A stretch of DNA of 52,679 bases from Emticicia agri (lineage in GTDB: Bacteria; Bacteroidota; Bacteroidia; Cytophagales; Spirosomataceae), in the NCBI RefSeq assembly GCF_004168285.1, contig NZ_SEWF01000046.1, positions 1-52,679 on the forward strand, read 5' to 3'. Below the pieces are notes generated by a model. The model did no database searches. It saw only the letters and a program-made list of their open reading frames with translations, and was not told the origin of the DNA. Shown here in pieces: positions 41,732 to 52,679 of the stretch. Position numbers and translations under genes: made by a program. The first letter of the stretch is position 1. Each line of letters begins with the position of its first letter.

Positions 41732-42110
41732 TGTTTTGTGAATGTTTAATGGTTTTTTGATGATAAGTCGTACTGTAATTCTGAAATGCTACAAAGGTTC
41801 TGAAAAAACTGATGAATCTTTAAGAAGATACGTATAAAGGTAGAATGGTTGGGAAAGGAGAGGGGGAATTGTGGGAAATCAGGGATATAATAGCAAAGTG
41901 CTTGGTACTAATAAGCCGTTTGGGTATAATACATTGAAAAAAATCTATCCTGACATACTGATAGCCAATTGTTGCAAAAAAAATATCCTGTTTCTTGTGA
42001 CTTTTTAATAGTTATGTAGTCTAAAAAGGTTTTGAGTATTTATATAGTTGAATAAACACAAAAGGCAAAGACCTTTCGACCTTTGCCCTTCTTTCCACTC
42101 ACACATCCGA
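41732..42110. other. non-coding gap
   Basis: The 379-base gap between the DUF3244-like gene and the lipoprotein gene holds no coding frame. The only structure I see is the terminator at 42061-42090. The lipoprotein promoter should be in the first 100 bases, but no clear TAnnTTTG box is seen. Confidence 0.55.
42061..42090 (-). terminator. Rho-independent-like terminator
   Basis: AAAGGCAAAG pairs with CTTTGCCCTT (9 of 10) over a 10-nt loop, 20 bp after the stop of the 123-aa gene on the minus strand. No T-tract of note. Confidence 0.65.
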
Positions 42111-45502: not shown

Positions 45503-45823
45503 TCAGGCAATAAGGAATTGCTGTTTTTTCAGGTGTTTGATTATCGGTTTTTTTCTGCGAGAAACCAAAACTTCTTTACCGTTTACCATCTGGATGCTTA
45601 CTTTTTTGCCTTCTTTACGCATGCCAATAATATAATCGGGGTTGAGTAAGAAAGAACGATGTACCCGCAGAAAGTGCCTCAGATTTTCTTTTGCTTCATG
45701 GCGTTTAAGGGTGGTAGGTAATATGATTTTTTTTCCGTTAAAAAAATGGTAGATAGTATAATTAACATCGGCTTCCAGATATACTATCTGCATGATGTCT
45801 TCAGAGCAGTCAAAATATGTCAT
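45503..45823 (-). CDS. stand-alone LytTR DNA-binding protein, downstream of CHAT gene
   Basis: A 106-aa LytTR-only protein: IMQIVYLEADVNYTIYHFFN, then LRHFLRVHRSFLLNPDYIIG and the DNA-contacting end GKEVLVSRRKKPIIKHLKK. It is encoded 87 bp after the CHAT gene with no terminator between, so it may be the last member of that operon. It lacks a receiver, as does the LytTR protein at 38910. A role as a local regulator of the CHAT module is possible; the targets are unknown. The start ATG at 45823 fits the domain start. Confidence 0.85.
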   Translation of the reverse strand: MTYFDCSEDIMQIVYLEADVNYTIYHFFNGKKIILPTTLKRHEAKENLRHFLRVHRSFLLNPDYIIGMRKEGKKVSIQMVNGKEVLVSRRKKPIIKHLKKQQFLIA

Positions 45824-45910
45824 TGGGCGTAAAGGTTAATGTTCAGTTAATGAACATTAGTCGTTGAACCCTCTCTTACGTAAACAAAAATGTTTGTTTT
45901 TATTACCATA

Positions 45911-48637
45911 TCATTTCCTGTATCTCTTGTGTAAAAATAAGCCAACCCCTATAAGCAAAACACCTGTTAGAATTATAAGCCCTGTATCCGGTTTTTCAAC
46001 AGGAGTAGTATCTCCTATCAGAATAGAAGATGCCCATAAGGTTGGCAATAAATTACGGTTGTTTGCCTGCATAAATGCTTGCTTTGCTTTTTGCAGAGCA
46101 ACATCTTTGGGTAGGCCGTCTTTCAGGTACGAATAAAAAAATTCTGTCAGGCTATAGGTTGATTTCTCATCAACACTCCATAAAGTAGTAATCAATGAGG
46201 GAATACCTAAAGCAGAAAAACTCCTTGACAAACTAAAAACTCCTTCTCCTTTAATATTTTTCCCCAATCCGGTTTTACAGGCTGATAAAACAATCATTTC
46301 GGTCTTGATAGTCTGGGCATGATTAATCTCTGAAACAAATACAGGAGTATCCTGCATATAAAAAACAGGCCCTTTATGGGTGGTATCGGCGTGAGTATAT
46401 AGTTGCACCAGCCGATAATCAGGAAACTGAGTCATAAATGCATGCTTGGATGCTTCTTTTCCCAGAAGTAAATGGCCACTGAATGTTTTTTCAATATTGG
46501 TTAAAGAAGTGGCCGATAGAGGCAGTTTATCAACTGAAAGTGTTCTGGCAAAATTAACGGGAGCTACACCCAGAAAAGATGTCCGATTAAACCATGAGGT
46601 TTGTTGATTTTTAGCTTCAATACTCTTTAAAAGAAAATTTGCTGAATAAGCATAGCTGATGGCAAAGGATTGTATCAGGAAGTCTGCTTTCTTTGCTGTA
46701 CGGCTGAATGCCTCAAAGGGCAAAAAATGGTCGTCGTAAGAAATAATGATTCTCCCTTCCGTTAATGCAAGCGGTTGAATCAGGTGAGTGTATAACTGGT
46801 TTGAGAGGATTAAAAAATCAGGGAAAGATTTATTAAGTGAGTCGATATTACTGCAAAAGTTCATAAACCGACTGCTAAGATTTTGTTGGTCTTTGGCTAT
46901 CTTAATCAGTTTAGTTGTTTCGGGGCTTATTTTCATGGCGTATGTAGCACTATCGCCTACAAAGTAAGTGATAAAAGCCTGATGCTGACTTGTCTGAAGC
47001 CATTGCTGCAAGGTGCTTAAATCTTTGAAGTCTTCGTTATATTTGGCTGCATAATAAGCAGGAAATCGTTTTTCTAAATCTTTCTTGAACCCGGTAAACT
47101 GGTCTTTAACTTCCGATAGTTTTTTGTAAGTTTCTTTGTAGAGTGCCGAATTTTCGGTTTGTTTTTCGAGTTGGGTCTGCAATTCAAAAATCTGGTCCTG
47201 ATAATTTTTTTCTTTTAATTTTTCTTGTGTCGATAAAAATTGACGGGCATTATTCTCTTTTAAATCATCTAACAGCAAAATAGCTCTCGATTTTTCCAGA
47301 AAATAAAAAGCTTTTTGAGAATCATTGGCTAAACGACAAGCCTCAATGGCTGATTCGTAAAGGCTACGGGAGTGTTCCCGCCAGAAACTCTTGGATTGTT
47401 GCCCCTGATGTTCTTGTCGCATCAGGTTCAGTAACTGATCAGCATAAGAGAGGTATTGAATCGAGCGGCTCAATACTTCCGGTTTTTTGTTTTTCTGATA
47501 AGCTATCAACAGGCTTTTGCCATAATCTCTCAATATATAAAAAAGCGTTCTTTTACTTCTGATTATACCGAAATTCTGTTTCTTAATATCTAATAAAGGA
47601 AACGCCATCAGGGCTTTTTCTAAGGTTTTGATAGCAGAATCTACTTTGTTTTCTTCACGCAGGTTAGTGGCATAATTCAGATAAACTCTACTAAGTTCTA
47701 CGCTTTTTTTTCCTTGAAGGGCAGTAATGGCTTTGTTGAAAACCCTATCTGCTTCTTTGTATTTATGAAACTCGGTATATAAAATCCCCAGATTATTGTG
47801 AATCCGCATGGGGATTAAATAATTAAATCTGAGTTGAATAAAAACCTGCTCCGCTCTCTTCAGATTGGTCTCGGCTAGTTTAAAGTCTTTCAGGTTATAA
47901 TAGCTGATACCCATATTGGCATAGATATTCCCTTTTAGTTCGCCATCATCATTTTTCGAAATCTGAAAAGATTTCTGGTAAAAGTTCTGTGCTATCTGAA
48001 GACTTTCAATCGCTTTTTTCTCATTTTCTAACCTACTGTAAGCGATACCTTTGCTATTATAAATCTGACTCATGAGCTGCAGCAAATGGCTTTGATTAGA
48101 GTTTTCGGCAAAACGCTCTGCTTTATTTAAAGAATTGAGCATACTCTCATAATCACCTAATTCTAATTCCAGATCTGAAATTAGTTTCAATGAATAGCCT
48201 TTCCAATAGGGGTCAGTAGCATATTGAATGGTTAGTTTATAATATTTAATGGCTTCCAGGTAATTCTGGAAGAGATGATGGTAAGCCCCTGCACCATAGG
48301 CGGCATAAGTAAGGCCTAACGGTTTCTGCTTAGCGTAACTTTCCCATTGTTTAAGACTCAACTTAATGTAAGGTAGGGCTTTATGTGCATCATTTTTTAA
48401 GTAATAATGGTAGGTGAGATTGCTACAAATATTCCCTCTGGTAGAATCCTGAATTGTTGCACAAGTCAGTGAAGTTTTATATAGGCGCTCTAACTGAGCG
48501 ATATTCTGATCAAGTGGGAGAGAGGCTGATTTTTTTATAGCTGCCTTGACGCTACTGTCTGATGGACATTGGGCAGATGACTTGTCAGTTAGGCTAAAAA
48601 CAATAAAAAATAAAAAGAGTATTAAAGTTTTATTCAT
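45911..48637 (-). CDS. exported, membrane-anchored TPR-CHAT protease
   Basis: The 908-aa protein starts with a signal peptide (ILFLFFIVFSLTDKSSA). Residues ~40-420 are TPR repeats (YYLKNDAHKALPYIKLSLKQ, GNIYANMGISYYNLKDFKLA, HNNLGILYTEFHKYKEADRV), residues ~455-530 a coiled coil (EKNYQDQIFELQTQLEKQ). A CHAT domain occupies ~590-880 with the caspase-like dyad His749 (LVQLYTHADTTHKGP) and Cys787 (VLSACKTGLG), then TLWSVDEKSTYSLTEFFY. A membrane helix (886-903) and a short basic tail (HKRYRK) close it, so the protease should face the periplasm. CHAT proteases are clan-CD peptidases often activated through TPR sensing. It is encoded downstream of the 208-aa gene, with a hairpin between, and upstream of the LytTR gene. 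The target is unknown. Confidence 0.9.
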   Translation of the reverse strand: MNKTLILFLFFIVFSLTDKSSAQCPSDSSVKAAIKKSASLPLDQNIAQLERLYKTSLTCATIQDSTRGNICSNLTYHYYLKNDAHKALPYIKLSLKQWESYAKQKPLGLTYAAYGAGAYHHLFQNYLEAIKYYKLTIQYATDPYWKGYSLKLISDLELELGDYESMLNSLNKAERFAENSNQSHLLQLMSQIYNSKGIAYSRLENEKKAIESLQIAQNFYQKSFQISKNDDGELKGNIYANMGISYYNLKDFKLAETNLKRAEQVFIQLRFNYLIPMRIHNNLGILYTEFHKYKEADRVFNKAITALQGKKSVELSRVYLNYATNLREENKVDSAIKTLEKALMAFPLLDIKKQNFGIIRSKRTLFYILRDYGKSLLIAYQKNKKPEVLSRSIQYLSYADQLLNLMRQEHQGQQSKSFWREHSRSLYESAIEACRLANDSQKAFYFLEKSRAILLLDDLKENNARQFLSTQEKLKEKNYQDQIFELQTQLEKQTENSALYKETYKKLSEVKDQFTGFKKDLEKRFPAYYAAKYNEDFKDLSTLQQWLQTSQHQAFITYFVGDSATYAMKISPETTKLIKIAKDQQNLSSRFMNFCSNIDSLNKSFPDFLILSNQLYTHLIQPLALTEGRIIISYDDHFLPFEAFSRTAKKADFLIQSFAISYAYSANFLLKSIEAKNQQTSWFNRTSFLGVAPVNFARTLSVDKLPLSATSLTNIEKTFSGHLLLGKEASKHAFMTQFPDYRLVQLYTHADTTHKGPVFYMQDTPVFVSEINHAQTIKTEMIVLSACKTGLGKNIKGEGVFSLSRSFSALGIPSLITTLWSVDEKSTYSLTEFFYSYLKDGLPKDVALQKAKQAFMQANNRNLLPTLWASSILIGDTTPVEKPDTGLIILTGVLLIGVGLFLHKRYRK

Positions 48638-48656
48638 AAGTAATGAGCTAAGGATA

Positions 48657-48679
48657 GGTGCTTAACCAGGTTAAGCACC
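48657..48679 (-). promoter_or_regulatory. intercistronic hairpin before the CHAT gene
   Basis: GGTGCTTAACC pairs with GGTTAAGCACC across a single central base; the real loop would be about 5 nt. It lies between the stop of the 208-aa gene and the CHAT start, 20 bp upstream of the CHAT ATG, and has no T-tract, so it is more likely an mRNA-processing or attenuating structure than a full terminator. Confidence 0.6.
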
Positions 48680-48717
48680 CATTAATTTATTCTATTTTTT
48701 TAAAACTACCAAGCATT

Positions 48718-49344
48718 TTATCTGATTGGTGGTGGAGGTATTTTTGGCCCACCCGTACCAGGATCTGGCTCTCCCTCTAATGCTTCTAAAGCAGAGATCG
48801 GTTGTCCCATGATTTTCAGGTTTCTGACCTCGAAATAAGACTTTTGGGGCGGAGTCATAGTATGGTCTATCACTAATCTCAGTTTAAGCTGAGTAACTGC
48901 GCCTAAAATATCATAATCGCTGTTGGCCTGCGGCTTAAGTACTACCTGCACATCTGTGCTTTCATTGCTGTCGTAAGTAAGCACGGGCACAATAATGTCA
49001 TAAAGATTCTTACTGTTAGGCGTGCTGCTTACAAGCGTTGAGTCTCCGAAAACCTGATAATTCAACCAGAAATCATTGTGTGCGTTGTGGATACAAATGA
49101 AGGCGTTGTCGCCTTGATTGATGAATAGTTTTACATTGGCCACAATAGCAATATCAGTAAAACCATCAGTATAAGTCAGATTATCTAAGGCATTGATGAG
49201 TGGCGAAGTAAGTGTATAACTTACCATTGGGTTTTCCTGATCAGAAATTTTGATGGTATCGCCGTCTAACGAAACAGCATCTTTAAATAGCTCCTGGCCT
49301 TCTATTTTCCAGTCTGCAAAATTGGCACTCCAGATTTCTTCCAT
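48718..49344 (-). CDS. hypothetical beta-rich protein with proline-rich tail, partner of CHAT gene
   Basis: A 208-aa protein without signal peptide or membrane helix. It is strand-rich throughout (FADWKIEGQELFKDAVSLDG, AIVANVKLFINQGDNAFICI, DVQVVLKPQANSDYDILGAV, VTQLKLRLVIDH), with the look of a jelly-roll or LamG-like sandwich, and ends in a flexible tail, EGEPDPGTGGPKIPPPPIR. I know no family. It lies 80 bp upstream of the CHAT protease gene and is probably on the same mRNA, so it could be a substrate, an activator or an inhibitor. Since the CHAT protein is exported and this one has no signal, their meeting place is unclear. The ATG at 49344 is the first in frame and follows a long non-coding region. 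Confidence 0.72.
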   Translation of the reverse strand: MEEIWSANFADWKIEGQELFKDAVSLDGDTIKISDQENPMVSYTLTSPLINALDNLTYTDGFTDIAIVANVKLFINQGDNAFICIHNAHNDFWLNYQVFGDSTLVSSTPNSKNLYDIIVPVLTYDSNESTDVQVVLKPQANSDYDILGAVTQLKLRLVIDHTMTPPQKSYFEVRNLKIMGQPISALEALEGEPDPGTGGPKIPPPPIR

Positions 49345-50467
49345 TTTTTACGAAATTTTGGGTTTTTTGATTAATATTTGAGGTAATTAGTCACATATCC
49401 CTTCGAAAAGGGCAAAAGCATAGCCTTAGCTGGCTTATGGGCAGCTATCAGATTTTAACAGGTGTAGTACATCAAAGGGAATTTTTAGTACACAGCTTTT
49501 TACCGGAGATTTGATTACTGTTTCATTGTGCGAGATTTGGTTTTATGATTAATAATTGATTGAAAACTTCATAGAATCCTTATGAAAAGACATAGCACGG
49601 CCTTGTCTGAAAAATAAATGCTTATCAGATTTCAAATTGGTATTCACATGAAAGTAACTTTTAGTACAAAGCGTTTGCGGGTTTTAACTCATACTTATGA
49701 GGTATTTGATTCTGGTTATTATGTTGTGTGAAATTCTCTGTAAATGCAAAGCAATAGCCCCATCTGATTTAATCAGCTGTCATATATGCTTATTGATAAG
49801 GCGTATTTATTAAAAAAATGACAATAGGGCTTTGTTTGTCAGGAATACTATTCCTGACAAAACAATTGTTTTTATAACCCTTTAATCTTAGAAATAAGAA
49901 TTGATAAGGCAATGCCCTGTTTGATTTTCACAGAGGGAAAAGACAGCTATACTCCTCTCTGGAATAGAATTTAGTCACAGCAATATATCTATTGGGATAT
50001 ACGAATCAGTCTATACGCAAAATATACGATTGCCTTAATGAACAGGTACTTTTAAGAGACTCTAATAGGTAAACAGCATCTTTTCAGGTTAATCCGCAAA
50101 TTTTAAGTTTATAAAAATAGCGTTACAAATAATTGTATTTTTAATATGGTTTTTAGTCACAGCTACGCAGTTGTTTCTGTTTGAGCAACGCAATAACCCT
50201 TCAAACGCTTTTTCTAAAGCATCAGTCCGGATTATTACGAAACCAATTTTGTTTGGTTATAGAAATTATCGCAAAAGCTGTTAAGGAGTCTTTTTTACGA
50301 CCCAGAGGTTTAATTTTAATAATTCAGCAATCTGGTTAAGGCTTTTCTGCCTGTTTGATTTAGTCAATTTAGCAAATAGTCATTTAAGGATTCATGAGAA
50401 CTTATTTTCCTATTTTAACTGTTAGTCGCTGTTTAATAAAATAGGTAAACAAAAAATCTGATTTTTT
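49345..50467. repeat. 1.1-kb non-coding region with degenerate repeats upstream of the CHAT operon
   Basis: No coding frame is visible. Two diverged copies about 176 bp apart share CATAGC (49419; 49591), TATCAGATTT (49446; 49623) and TTTTAGTACAnAGC (49483-49496; 49659-49672). A weaker third copy begins GCAATAGCCC at 49751. The 9-mer TTAGTCACA occurs at 49387, 49971 and 50153. A 12-bp perfect hairpin is at 49835-49861. It may be a decayed gene, a set of binding sites or an unrecognised RNA. Confidence 0.5.
49835..49861. terminator. 12-bp perfect hairpin in the non-coding region
   Basis: TTTGTCAGGAAT (49835-49846) pairs with ATTCCTGACAAA (49850-49861) around ACT. On the plus strand it is followed shortly by a T-rich stretch (GTTTTTAT), on the minus strand by CAAAGCCC. 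It could end a small transcript coming from the left or a long 3' tail of the sigma/TPR operon. Confidence 0.6.
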
Positions 50468-51175
50468 TTATAAGCTCCATTTTTCTATTTCCTGCCAGCC
50501 TTCTGTTTTTTCGTTACGTACTTTTTCAAGGAGTTTTTTTGCTTCGGTGAGGTCATTATTCTGATTGCGTTGCAGAAGGGTAAGGGCATAATAAAACGTA
50601 CCCGGATTTGATTGTAGATTCTGTTTCTGTAGTGTTGCAAAGTGTTCAAGTGCCAGCGAATATTTTTGTAGACGTAAGTAGGAGATACCAGCATATTTCA
50701 GGGCTTCAGGATTATTGTACTCTGCCAGGCTATCAAAAATAGCCGCCGCTTTTGTTAATTGCCCCTCGTTGAAAAGCGAAATAGCCTTTTTAAAAGTATC
50801 TTTATCTGCCGACATGGTGGTACTTAAAGTCGAAAAATTTTCTTTTATGTATGCATCGGCCAATTCTGTGAGTTTCGGTTCTGACAAGTACCACCAACTC
50901 AGTATAGTAATACAAATAACTATGATGGCTGCAATAGAGTATTTTACAGCAGCAGTAGCCATTACCGGCATTTTATGTTTTTTTCTTAATTCTTCAAATT
51001 CTGCTTTGCGTTTGGCTCGTTGTAGTTGTGTAAAACCATATTTAGTTTTTACATAGAGTGCAACAGTTTCGGCAAAAGCCTGATTGGTTTTACACCTTGT
51101 TTCAAACGCCTGACGCTCAGGTTCAGAAAGTTCATTATTAAAAAAGCTTTCAATTAAAGCTAATTCATTTTCCAT
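50468..51175 (-). CDS. single-pass membrane TPR protein, probable anti-sigma factor
   Basis: A 235-aa protein with a cytoplasmic N-terminal segment (residues 1-72; IESFFNNELSEPERQAFETR resembles the N-terminal helices of Bacteroidota anti-sigma factors), one membrane helix (about 77-97, VKYSIAAIIVICITILSWWY) and periplasmic TPR-like repeats (about 130-225; KKAISLFNEGQLTKAAAIFD, GISYLRLQKYSLALEHFATL). It starts 2 bp after the stop of the sigma-factor gene, so the two are coupled. The layout suggests that a signal sensed by the external TPRs releases the sigma factor. The exported TPR-CHAT protein downstream could be the binding partner or the protease that cuts it. Confidence 0.82.
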   Translation of the reverse strand: MENELALIESFFNNELSEPERQAFETRCKTNQAFAETVALYVKTKYGFTQLQRAKRKAEFEELRKKHKMPVMATAAVKYSIAAIIVICITILSWWYLSEPKLTELADAYIKENFSTLSTTMSADKDTFKKAISLFNEGQLTKAAAIFDSLAEYNNPEALKYAGISYLRLQKYSLALEHFATLQKQNLQSNPGTFYYALTLLQRNQNNDLTEAKKLLEKVRNEKTEGWQEIEKWSL

Positions 51176-51177
51176 GA

Positions 51178-51759
51178 CTAATAAGTTTTTCTAAGTTTAT
51201 CAATGCATCTCATACGACTCACCTTTACTACATCAACAGAGCTATAAGTGAGCATATCAAGAATTTCCTTATCAGAGTACCCGTTGGCCCATAATAATAA
51301 TAATTCTTTGCATTTTTTACCTACGGCATCAAGCCTTTGTAACAAAGTTGTTTCCTCTTCCTGTTCAATTATTTGCTGAATAATACTTTGGGTATCATCG
51401 CCCATTAAATACATTATTTCAGAAAGTAAAACGGTGTCAAAAGTTGGCGCTGCCCTGTTTGTCGCTTTTTTTCTGATAAGGGAAACACATTGGTTTGAAA
51501 AAATTTGATAAATATAAGTTTTTAAAGAAGCACGCCCTTCAAACCGACGACCGAGAATGTGGTCAATGACACTTAATATGGTGTCTGAATAAACAGAAGC
51601 AGATTCATGTTCTTCAATTTGATGTTTCCTGACACCCTCTTTGATAAAGTACAGATACTTTTCGTAGAGTATATTTTCGCATTTTTGTCTTTCTCTTCCA
51701 CCTTTTAAAATCCCCTCAATTATTTCAGAGTCAGCATCATTGTGTAAAAATTGAAACAT
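51178..51759 (-). CDS. sigma-70-family (ECF-like) RNA polymerase sigma factor
   Basis: A 193-aa sigma factor with region 2 at about 20-95 (CENILYEKYLYFIKEGVRKH, SVYSDTILSVIDHILGRRFE, FEGRASLKTYIYQIFSNQCV) and region 4 at about 140-190 (RLDAVGKKCKELLLLWANGY, then SDKEILDMLTYSSVDVVKVS). Region 2 is divergent from standard ECF factors, and region 4 shows the ...GYSDKEI.... helix. It is followed 2 bp later by the membrane TPR gene, the usual sigma/anti-sigma order. It heads a block that continues with the CHAT module on the same strand, so that module is a good candidate for its regulon. Confidence 0.88.
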   Translation of the reverse strand: MFQFLHNDADSEIIEGILKGGRERQKCENILYEKYLYFIKEGVRKHQIEEHESASVYSDTILSVIDHILGRRFEGRASLKTYIYQIFSNQCVSLIRKKATNRAAPTFDTVLLSEIMYLMGDDTQSIIQQIIEQEEETTLLQRLDAVGKKCKELLLLWANGYSDKEILDMLTYSSVDVVKVSRMRCIDKLRKTY

Positions 51760-51963: not shown

Positions 51964-52679
51964 CTATACAATTTGGATTATTGAATATTTTTTTTTCTTA
52001 ATAAAGGACAAATATTTGTTCAAATCAAACCAGCTAATTATACAATTACTAATAGCTTGCAATCCATTTCTAAAAATAGAGACGGCAGGATATTTATCTC
52101 CATTTTTGTATTTTATTGTTCTAATTTTTTGCACTTTTTGTTGAATAATTCCTTCCCTTATTGCTAAAATATAGGCGACAACTACTAAGCTAATCATCAA
52201 ACGGATTTTTTTCAAATCAGTTAATGACATATCCTCTAAGTTAAATCCATTAGTCTTCATATGCTTAAATCGGACCGCCGAAGCGGCAATATTCAATTTT
52301 CCAACGTTTTGCATACTGTTTTCCGATTCTTTTTTTATTTAAAACATTGGTAATCAAATAGATAATAGGCTCACCTTTATTATCAGAACGCCACATCTCA
52401 ATTCTGTATTTTTGTCCACAAACAGTAAAAATAGCCTGAGAATAGCCTTTTCTTGTTGCTTTCATCTCTAATTCCTCATAACTGTAGCCACTATCTTCGA
52501 TTGGTTTACGATACATCCCCTTACGTAAGCGGATAACAAAATTTAACTCAAAGGCAAGCAAATGGCTAAACCATTCTTTTCCTATAAACTCTCTATCGGC
52601 TATCAATAGTTTGCCATGCAAATCTATGAGTACAAATGCCTTACGAATGAAATTGATACGATCCTTTTCTGATAATACA
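51964..52679 (-). pseudogene. IS4-family transposase, disrupted by a 16-nt insertion and cut by the window edge
   Basis: The 3' two-thirds of an IS4-type DDE transposase. The frame is open to the window edge (VLSEKDRINFIRKAF before LHGKLLIADREFIGKEW, with the second catalytic Asp). It stops shortly after KRWKIEYC; the next frame resumes at FKHMKTNGFNLEDM. Removing 16 nt (52270-52285 on the plus strand) joins them as YAKRWKIEYCFKHMK, an exact Y-(2)-R-(3)-E-(6)-K IS4 signature. The insertion is G+C-rich in an A+T-rich gene. The final segment (51964 on) is also complete to its stop. The element's terminal repeats were not identified. Confidence 0.82.
52270..52285. other. 16-nt GC-rich insertion in the IS4-family transposase
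   Basis: The bases (TCGGACCGCCGAAGCG on the plus strand) have 12 G/C of 16 and break the reading frame inside the Y-R-E-K motif. On the coding strand they contain CCGC-TTCG-GCGG, a four-base-pair stem with the very stable UUCG tetraloop in RNA. No duplication of flanking sequence is seen. Confidence 0.65.

Follow-up and report, generated by a model that had tools for sequence, protein, structure and literature searches.

In type III-E CRISPR systems, the bacterial CHAT protease Csx29 cuts Csx30, a protein that binds and inhibits the extracytoplasmic function (ECF)-like sigma factor CASP-sigma (PMC10028731). The ECF sigma factor DdvS of Myxococcus is active once its anti-sigma factor has been inactivated (PMC4374960) and controls an antiphage island (PMC12288465). 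A locus with comparable components was identified in a window of 52,679 nucleotides from Emticicia agri (contig NZ_SEWF01000046.1; the window being the whole stretch of DNA analysed), where genes for an ECF-like sigma factor, a membrane protein with tetratricopeptide repeats (TPR), a protein of 208 amino acids (aa), a predicted exported TPR-CHAT protease and a LytTR DNA-binding protein were found (Table 1). The position and strand (all minus) of these five open reading frames (ORFs), as proposed in a first-pass annotation of the window, were confirmed, as were the domain identities of LytTR, TPR-CHAT, the TPR protein with one membrane segment and sigma-70 region 2 (Pfam).

The locus resembles Craspase/CASP in that a TPR-CHAT protease is encoded together with an ECF-like sigma factor and a presumed sigma inhibitor, and in that Csx29 is the best fold match of the E. 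agri CHAT protein. The two differ in that the E. agri protease looks exported and membrane-anchored, the presumed anti-sigma factor is a single-pass TPR protein, and the sigma factor lies outside the type III-E sigma family by the NCBIfam model (27 bits with NF041236, CAS_III-E_sigma, against a cut-off of 100). By analogy, the module may operate as the protease and sigma branch of Craspase does, and also as DegS/RseA control does. Envelope sigma control of the DegS/RseA and RsiV types resembles the presumed scheme here in that the anti-sigma factor sits in the membrane and reaches outside, where a protease of the envelope is the likely trigger; the enzyme here differs in being a CHAT protease that carries its own TPR solenoid and is co-encoded. 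Subtilases of the peptidase S8 family (PF00082) are the usual middle gene of the module and are absent from the E. agri locus.

On comparison of gene content and neighbourhood, the sigma factor, the membrane TPR protein and the exported TPR-CHAT protein form one conserved unit of the Bacteroidota. In a family survey of 150 genomes, with cut-offs chosen after the match lists had been viewed and placed at breaks in them (E≤1e-27 for sigma, E≤1e-18 for the TPR protein and E≤1e-90 for CHAT), the sigma factor was matched in 68 genomes, the TPR protein in 69 and CHAT in 66. The sigma factor was also present in 64 of the 66 CHAT genomes, and the TPR protein in 65. Named loci were taken as the best 80 of 348 CHAT relatives, which from their organism names we take to belong to Spirosomataceae, Sphingobacteriaceae, Chitinophagaceae, Cyclobacteriaceae and a Flavobacterium. 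Sigma and TPR genes were found alongside CHAT in 66 of these 80 loci, 52 with a subtilase and 14 without; the others held a subtilase only (7), TPR and subtilase (1), sigma and subtilase (1) or none of the three (5), and three of these last five have no more than 1316 bases upstream of CHAT. The first-pass proposal that these three genes belong together was borne out by this comparison.

A paralogous CHAT group, comprising 77 weaker family matches (E 9.8e-54 to 7.2e-21, with three further matches resembling pieces of the main group left out), was also found to be linked, at least 34 of its members lying no more than 6 kb from a relative of this sigma factor or TPR protein, which for at least 28 of these was a sigma relative. 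At least 29 of the linked pairs lie on opposite strands and are mostly convergent. The link between sigma, TPR protein and CHAT therefore has a second arrangement.

The CHAT domain (PF12770) of the E. agri protease was recognized by Pfam with an E-value of 4.3e-41 (141.7 bits against a cut-off of 24), with TPR repeats N-terminal to it. The putative catalytic dyad of His749 and Cys787 was intact as annotated, both residues being invariant in all 18 aligned sequences (E. agri and 17 relatives). Hydropathy was examined with a crude test among 107 CHAT proteins differing in their last 60 residues. A hydrophobic segment was identified at the N-terminus of 84 and at the C-terminus of 95, with 78 having both, and a positively charged tail was present in 104 of the 107, and because of these features an exported and anchored topology is predicted, which fits most members. 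The first-pass annotation had named beforehand the failure of the signal peptide in most homologues as grounds for giving up its proposal; by the crude count just given, the peptide holds in most. It had likewise named CHAT homologues that consistently lack the sigma/TPR pair or the 208-aa gene nearby; on that test the pair holds up and the 208-aa gene does not.

A structure model of the CHAT protein built from 18 sequences (predicted local distance difference test, pLDDT, 83.6; predicted template modelling score, pTM, 0.81) was compared to solved structures with Foldseek. The best match was Csx29 (8eey_B, E 7.7e-14), followed at rank 2 by the transmembrane anti-sigma factor DdvA of Myxococcus (8rw5, E 1.8e-11; dimeric according to the title of the entry) and, lower down, by further Craspase chains and separase. 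A profile of the CHAT domain, searched by sequence at E≤1, found only the Craspase CHAT (Csx29) chains (E 0.022-0.056) and did not find DdvA. The DdvA match possibly reflects the TPR solenoid only, and the idea of DdvA as a fused anti-sigma/CHAT protein was not borne out by the Foldseek match and the profile search. A check against the Csx29 family gave two TPR-type NCBIfam matches far below cut-off, in a library from which a Csx29 model is possibly absent, and no match to PADLOC was found at E≤0.01, where such a model is possibly absent as well.

The E. agri sigma factor matched Pfam Sigma70_r2 at 9.2e-5 (22.6 bits, below the curated cut-off of 24) and NCBIfam sigma70-ECF over residues 30-191 at 9e-11 (41.7 bits against a cut-off of 42.9). 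Region 2 was recognized in all 15 aligned sigma members (E≤0.1), and a sigma profile searched by sequence against the Protein Data Bank gave no match at E≤0.01. For the adjacent 235-aa protein, the best Pfam TPR match (4.1e-6, 27.6 bits) falls below the cut-off of 32.7, and the alignment suggests a layout with a predicted cytoplasmic N-terminus of about 75 aa, one transmembrane (TM) helix and external TPRs. Among 106 relatives examined by the same crude hydropathy, a TM-like segment was found in 98, the best hydrophobic segment began at residue 60-115 in 102, and positive charge was higher before the segment than after it in 95. In one genome with no match to this CHAT (G048), the sigma factor and the TPR protein were identified as a fusion in a single 435-aa ORF (L105:6358-7665). 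The 235-aa protein is a probable anti-sigma factor, a role that its topology, its adjacency to the sigma gene and the fusion fit. In Larkinella-type loci (L038, L058-L061, L068), one sigma gene was observed to be followed by two tandem TPR anti-sigma-like genes.

The gene between the TPR protein and CHAT varies. In 16 of the first 20 loci fetched (L036-L055) a 454-601-aa ORF lies there, and peptidase S8 (PF00082) was recognized in all eight scanned of the 16 aligned. Residues D202, H244, S423 and N329 are invariant in all 16, and from subtilase motifs we take these to be the catalytic Asp, His and Ser and the oxyanion Asn. A subtilase is present in 61 of the best 80 of 348 CHAT loci. By crude hydropathy, a hydrophobic N-terminus was detected in 39 of 83 subtilases and a lipobox-like one in 14; because of these counts the location of the subtilase appears variable, which speaks against any one scheme that would have it encounter the exported CHAT in every case. 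In one locus, the subtilase slot is occupied by a 194-aa ORF (L076:8787-9371) that by eye is protease-prodomain-like, without a catalytic domain or a Pfam match.

The 208-aa protein of E. agri, which the first-pass annotation had treated as a regular partner, was found in only two of the 150 family genomes and two of 11 genomes of the genus, namely E. agri and its nearest relative (G085), and was rejected as a conserved component. It has no match in Pfam, NCBIfam or PADLOC, and its tail is Gly/Pro-rich and ends in PPPPIR. It is probably a beta-sandwich; its model is poor (pLDDT 50.7), and the Foldseek matches, weak ones of lectin or carbohydrate-binding module type with none at E≤0.001, serve as a hint of such a fold. 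In a midpoint-rooted FastTree phylogeny of 105 CHAT proteins, E. agri grouped with L115, L099, L109, L108 and L173/L182/L186 (support 0.904; branching within the clade weak, 0.142), and all eight members of this clade have no subtilase within the stretch read. The slot 5' of CHAT instead holds 208 aa in E. agri, 257 aa in Flectobacillus-type loci, 297 aa in L099, 167 aa in L108 and 166 aa in L109. Relocation of the subtilase within the E. agri genome was rejected, since neither this genome nor G085 holds an orthologue of the module subtilase (best matches of 76 and 77 bits, compared to 327 in G094), and the gene has not merely moved. With very shallow profiles, the 208-aa protein gave no detected homology with either the subtilase or the slot protein of 257 aa. 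On this comparison, the subtilase is absent in the E. agri lineage and an apparently unrelated beta protein occupies its slot. A second subtilase-free group, of Chitinophagaceae type, has short slot ORFs, several of them with a membrane segment or a lipoprotein-like start by eye.

Upstream of the sigma genes a recurrent element was detected. TTAGTCG was found to be enriched in 24 of the regions upstream of 90 non-identical sigma genes; read on the opposite strand it forms TGTT-N19/20-CGACTAA, which in all 24 points away from the sigma gene. Autoregulation of sigma through this motif is unsupported, as none of the 90 regions carries it facing sigma. A search of the 6.65-Mb E. agri genome with TGTT-N18..21-CGACTAA gave five matches, all N19 and all of the form TGTTT(A/C)C-N16-CGACTAA, compared to 37 for the reversed-pattern control. 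Two of the five lie at this locus, one before LytTR and the other leading the gap/208-aa/CHAT unit (the chance of two of five falling within 6.3 kb fixed beforehand being 9e-6). Another copy (C4:210100-210129, L201) stands 145 bases 5' of a 243-aa lipoprotein-like gene, and one on C59 (L202:2738-2767) is followed by an 89-aa exported-looking ORF and then by two large YD-repeat (RHS-like) genes identified by eye. This candidate promoter, TGTTT(A/C)C-N16-CGACTAA, is a new observation of this analysis. The first-pass annotation had suggested a search for a promoter shared by the sigma and 208-aa genes; the element was found 1.08 kb before the start of the 208-aa gene, and also at LytTR, and the region upstream of the E. 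agri sigma gene does not carry the full motif.

Across the 150 genomes, the strict motif was present in 36 of the 68 that have the sigma factor and in 6 of the 82 that lack it (Fisher 3e-10), or in 29 of 68 and 6 of 82 when sites at module loci were excluded (Fisher 4.5e-7), p-values that overstate independence and are optimistic because the genomes are related. The reversed pattern showed no such difference (29 of 68 compared to 30 of 82; Fisher 0.5). The element precedes LytTR at 11 of 55 motif sites (9 by script; L211 and L218, masked by a start called too far upstream, were added by inspection) and lies ahead of single-domain LytTR genes in four genera, including Arcicella- and Flectobacillus-type genomes and also G011. 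Behind the 24 sigma-upstream sites were found LytTR in seven cases (by profile), 86-aa LuxR-type helix-turn-helix (HTH) proteins in two (by eye; Siphonobacter-type L073 and L085, in place of LytTR), small exported proteins in eight (by eye) and two doubtful ORFs, with no ORF found behind five. Its recurrent targets therefore appear to be small proteins of two sorts, DNA-binding regulators and exported proteins. In a count made without regard to the motif, LytTR lies divergent to sigma at 8 of 90 loci, compared to 23 of 1760 background ORFs. The LytTR of E. agri (PF04397; 59 bits against a cut-off of 22.6) is probably a target of the sigma factor, and its inclusion in the module by the first-pass annotation was upheld by the shared promoter-like element that ties it to the core.

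The stretch of approximately 1.1 kb between the TPR and 208-aa genes, on which the first-pass annotation was silent, contains no ORF that reaches 60 aa, and because of this gap the five genes do not form a single tight operon. In G085 (locus L036) an intact 300-aa ORF lies at this place, with a copy of the element 288 bases before it at the position corresponding to 50422-50451. The first 441 bases of the gap share 73% DNA identity with G085 in a broken reading frame, which indicates a decayed gene, and tblastn recovered pieces of residues 1-41 of the 300-aa protein in changing frames (best 1.1e-4, two others 0.58). The 300-aa protein has no Pfam match and a single weak, unrelated NCBIfam match; a papain-like nature is suggested by a motif only. 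No Rfam match was found at gathering thresholds between positions 42000 and 52679. A fragment of a DDE transposase (Pfam DDE_Tnp_1) was observed upstream of the sigma gene, at 52265-52678, where the contig ends.

Table 1. Features of the E. agri sigma/TPR/CHAT locus, with positions in the window
Feature	Position	Strand	Basis
Sigma factor, ECF-like, 193 aa	51178-51759	-	Pfam Sigma70_r2, NCBIfam sigma70-ECF
Membrane TPR protein, 235 aa, probable anti-sigma factor	50468-51175	-	Alignment, hydropathy, adjacency to sigma
Candidate sigma-dependent promoter TGTTTAC-N16-CGACTAA, directly 3' of the TPR gene	50422-50451	-	Motif match
Decayed relic, start of the 300-aa gene	50026-50147 (inside gap 49345-50467)	-	tblastn pieces, DNA identity to L036
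208-aa lineage-specific protein, in the slot of the relatives' subtilase	48718-49344	-	Genome comparison, low-confidence model
Exported TPR-CHAT protease (predicted), 908 aa, His749/Cys787, C-terminal TM anchor	45911-48637	-	Pfam CHAT, alignment, model
Second copy of the candidate sigma promoter	45857-45886	-	34 bases 5' of the LytTR start codon
LytTR DNA-binding protein, single-domain, 106 aa, probable sigma target	45503-45823	-	Pfam LytTR 5.7e-16

Taken as a cell-envelope signalling module, the locus would operate with CHAT triggering the release of sigma through cleavage of the anti-sigma factor and with LytTR as output, and this is the reading towards which we lean, by a modest degree of belief. 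In it, the TPR protein would hold the sigma factor at the membrane via its cytoplasmic N-terminus. On a signal from beyond the inner membrane, the TPR-CHAT protease would engage the external TPRs of the anti-sigma factor and cut it directly; in other species the cut would perhaps be made via the subtilase. Freed sigma would transcribe a small DNA-binding regulator, which is LytTR here and the LuxR-type HTH protein at Siphonobacter-type loci; its product elsewhere would be a small exported protein. In the E. agri lineage the freed sigma would also raise the 208-aa protein and CHAT in a positive feedback. The conserved unit, the topology in most members, the intact dyad and the promoter-like element come from comparison of sequences, and from these we infer the anti-sigma function, the TPR-TPR contact, the cleavage by CHAT and the signal.

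Several observations weigh against this reading of the module. Sigma region 4 was recognized in just one of the 15 aligned members, no Pfam anti-sigma domain was matched by the N-terminus of the E. agri TPR protein, and no anti-sigma family was present among the 25 listed of 59 families for 16 aligned TPR proteins. In Arcicella-type genomes, CHAT and the subtilase often lie apart from sigma and the TPR protein (5 of the 7 loci with a subtilase only). As regards the element, it was derived from upstream regions of the same family in which it was then tested; neither E. agri nor G085 contributes to the 24 full-motif regions upstream of sigma; and the copy at 50422-50451 is remote from the 208-aa start, at the distance given above. 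One of the five E. agri sites lies inside a 293-aa ORF, 44 of the 55 motif sites do not precede LytTR, and 20 of the 55 were flagged inside an ORF of at least 120 aa, some of them via over-long start calls. In G085, LytTR is missing next to the module, and the second copy of the motif falls within the sigma gene.

The main rival to CHAT as trigger is that CHAT, and elsewhere also the subtilase, are outputs, the sigma/anti-sigma pair sensing envelope stress via other proteases and inducing envelope proteases as effectors. Such an arrangement is conceivable, though not probable, and would agree with the position of CHAT and the subtilase downstream of sigma on the same strand in relatives, with the motif that heads the gap/208-aa/CHAT unit in E. 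agri, and with the two other E. agri sites that precede the lipoprotein-like gene and, across a small ORF, the YD-repeat genes. On the other side, three points favour a substrate-side role, none of them decisive: both membrane partners carry TPRs, Csx29/Csx30/CASP-sigma offers a precedent, and CHAT stays with sigma and the TPR protein in the 14 of the best 80 of 348 loci where the subtilase is absent. It is rather unlikely, in our estimation, that the slot protein is the substrate of CHAT, which would cut the Gly/Pro-rich linker of a subtilase zymogen or a tail of the 208-aa type in a two-protease cascade apart from sigma control. For 80 subtilases (84 read, four dropped as the pattern missed the catalytic Asp), the stretch richest in Gly and Pro sits 5-110 residues N-terminal to that Asp in 59, compared to 18 expected if evenly placed, but Gly/Pro linkers may be usual between prodomains and catalytic domains. 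A PPPx(R/K) C-terminus was found in only 9 of 2313 ORFs of at least 100 aa, each a slot protein belonging to one of two unrelated kinds, in a count that includes duplicate records and counts two families repeatedly; between the 208-aa and 257-aa proteins, however, and between either of them and the subtilase, no homology was detected. Furthermore, because the hydrophobic N-terminus is clear in only 39 of 83 subtilases, many may sit across the membrane from CHAT.

For the shared element itself, a role as a LytTR binding site in autoregulation, rather than as a sigma promoter, was also considered, since it repeatedly precedes LytTR genes. This appears improbable, as its two boxes with fixed spacing (N19 in all five E. 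agri sites, with 18-21 allowed) resemble -35 and -10 boxes, and as it also stands before genes in Larkinella- and Runella-type loci in which no LytTR was found alongside. The element also tracks sigma across genomes, in a comparison drawn on the presence of sigma alone.

A search of the open-access literature, which leaves aside subscription papers and preprints, yielded no account of a cluster of sigma/TPR/CHAT or sigma/subtilase/CHAT type. Csx29 of type III-E CRISPR is the bacterial CHAT protease with a worked-out link to a sigma factor that was found there (PMC10028731). As a tentative and speculative extension, the module could parallel the Craspase circuit outside the cytoplasm and free of CRISPR (no search for Cas7-11 or an array having been made), in which case the anchored, caspase-like TPR-CHAT would be the site-1 protease of the TPR anti-sigma factor, the ECF sigma factor would drive an orphan regulator, and a swappable slot gene product would be cut at its Gly/Pro-rich linker. 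The module is directly testable in Bacteroidota, as the element offers a ready reporter and the dyad a ready dead mutant. A conserved exported CHAT protein with its own sigma factor, membrane TPR protein and predicted promoter would make the CHAT-sigma design general. If this is true, CHAT control of sigma factors would be an old and widespread bacterial design, on which type III-E CRISPR may have drawn.

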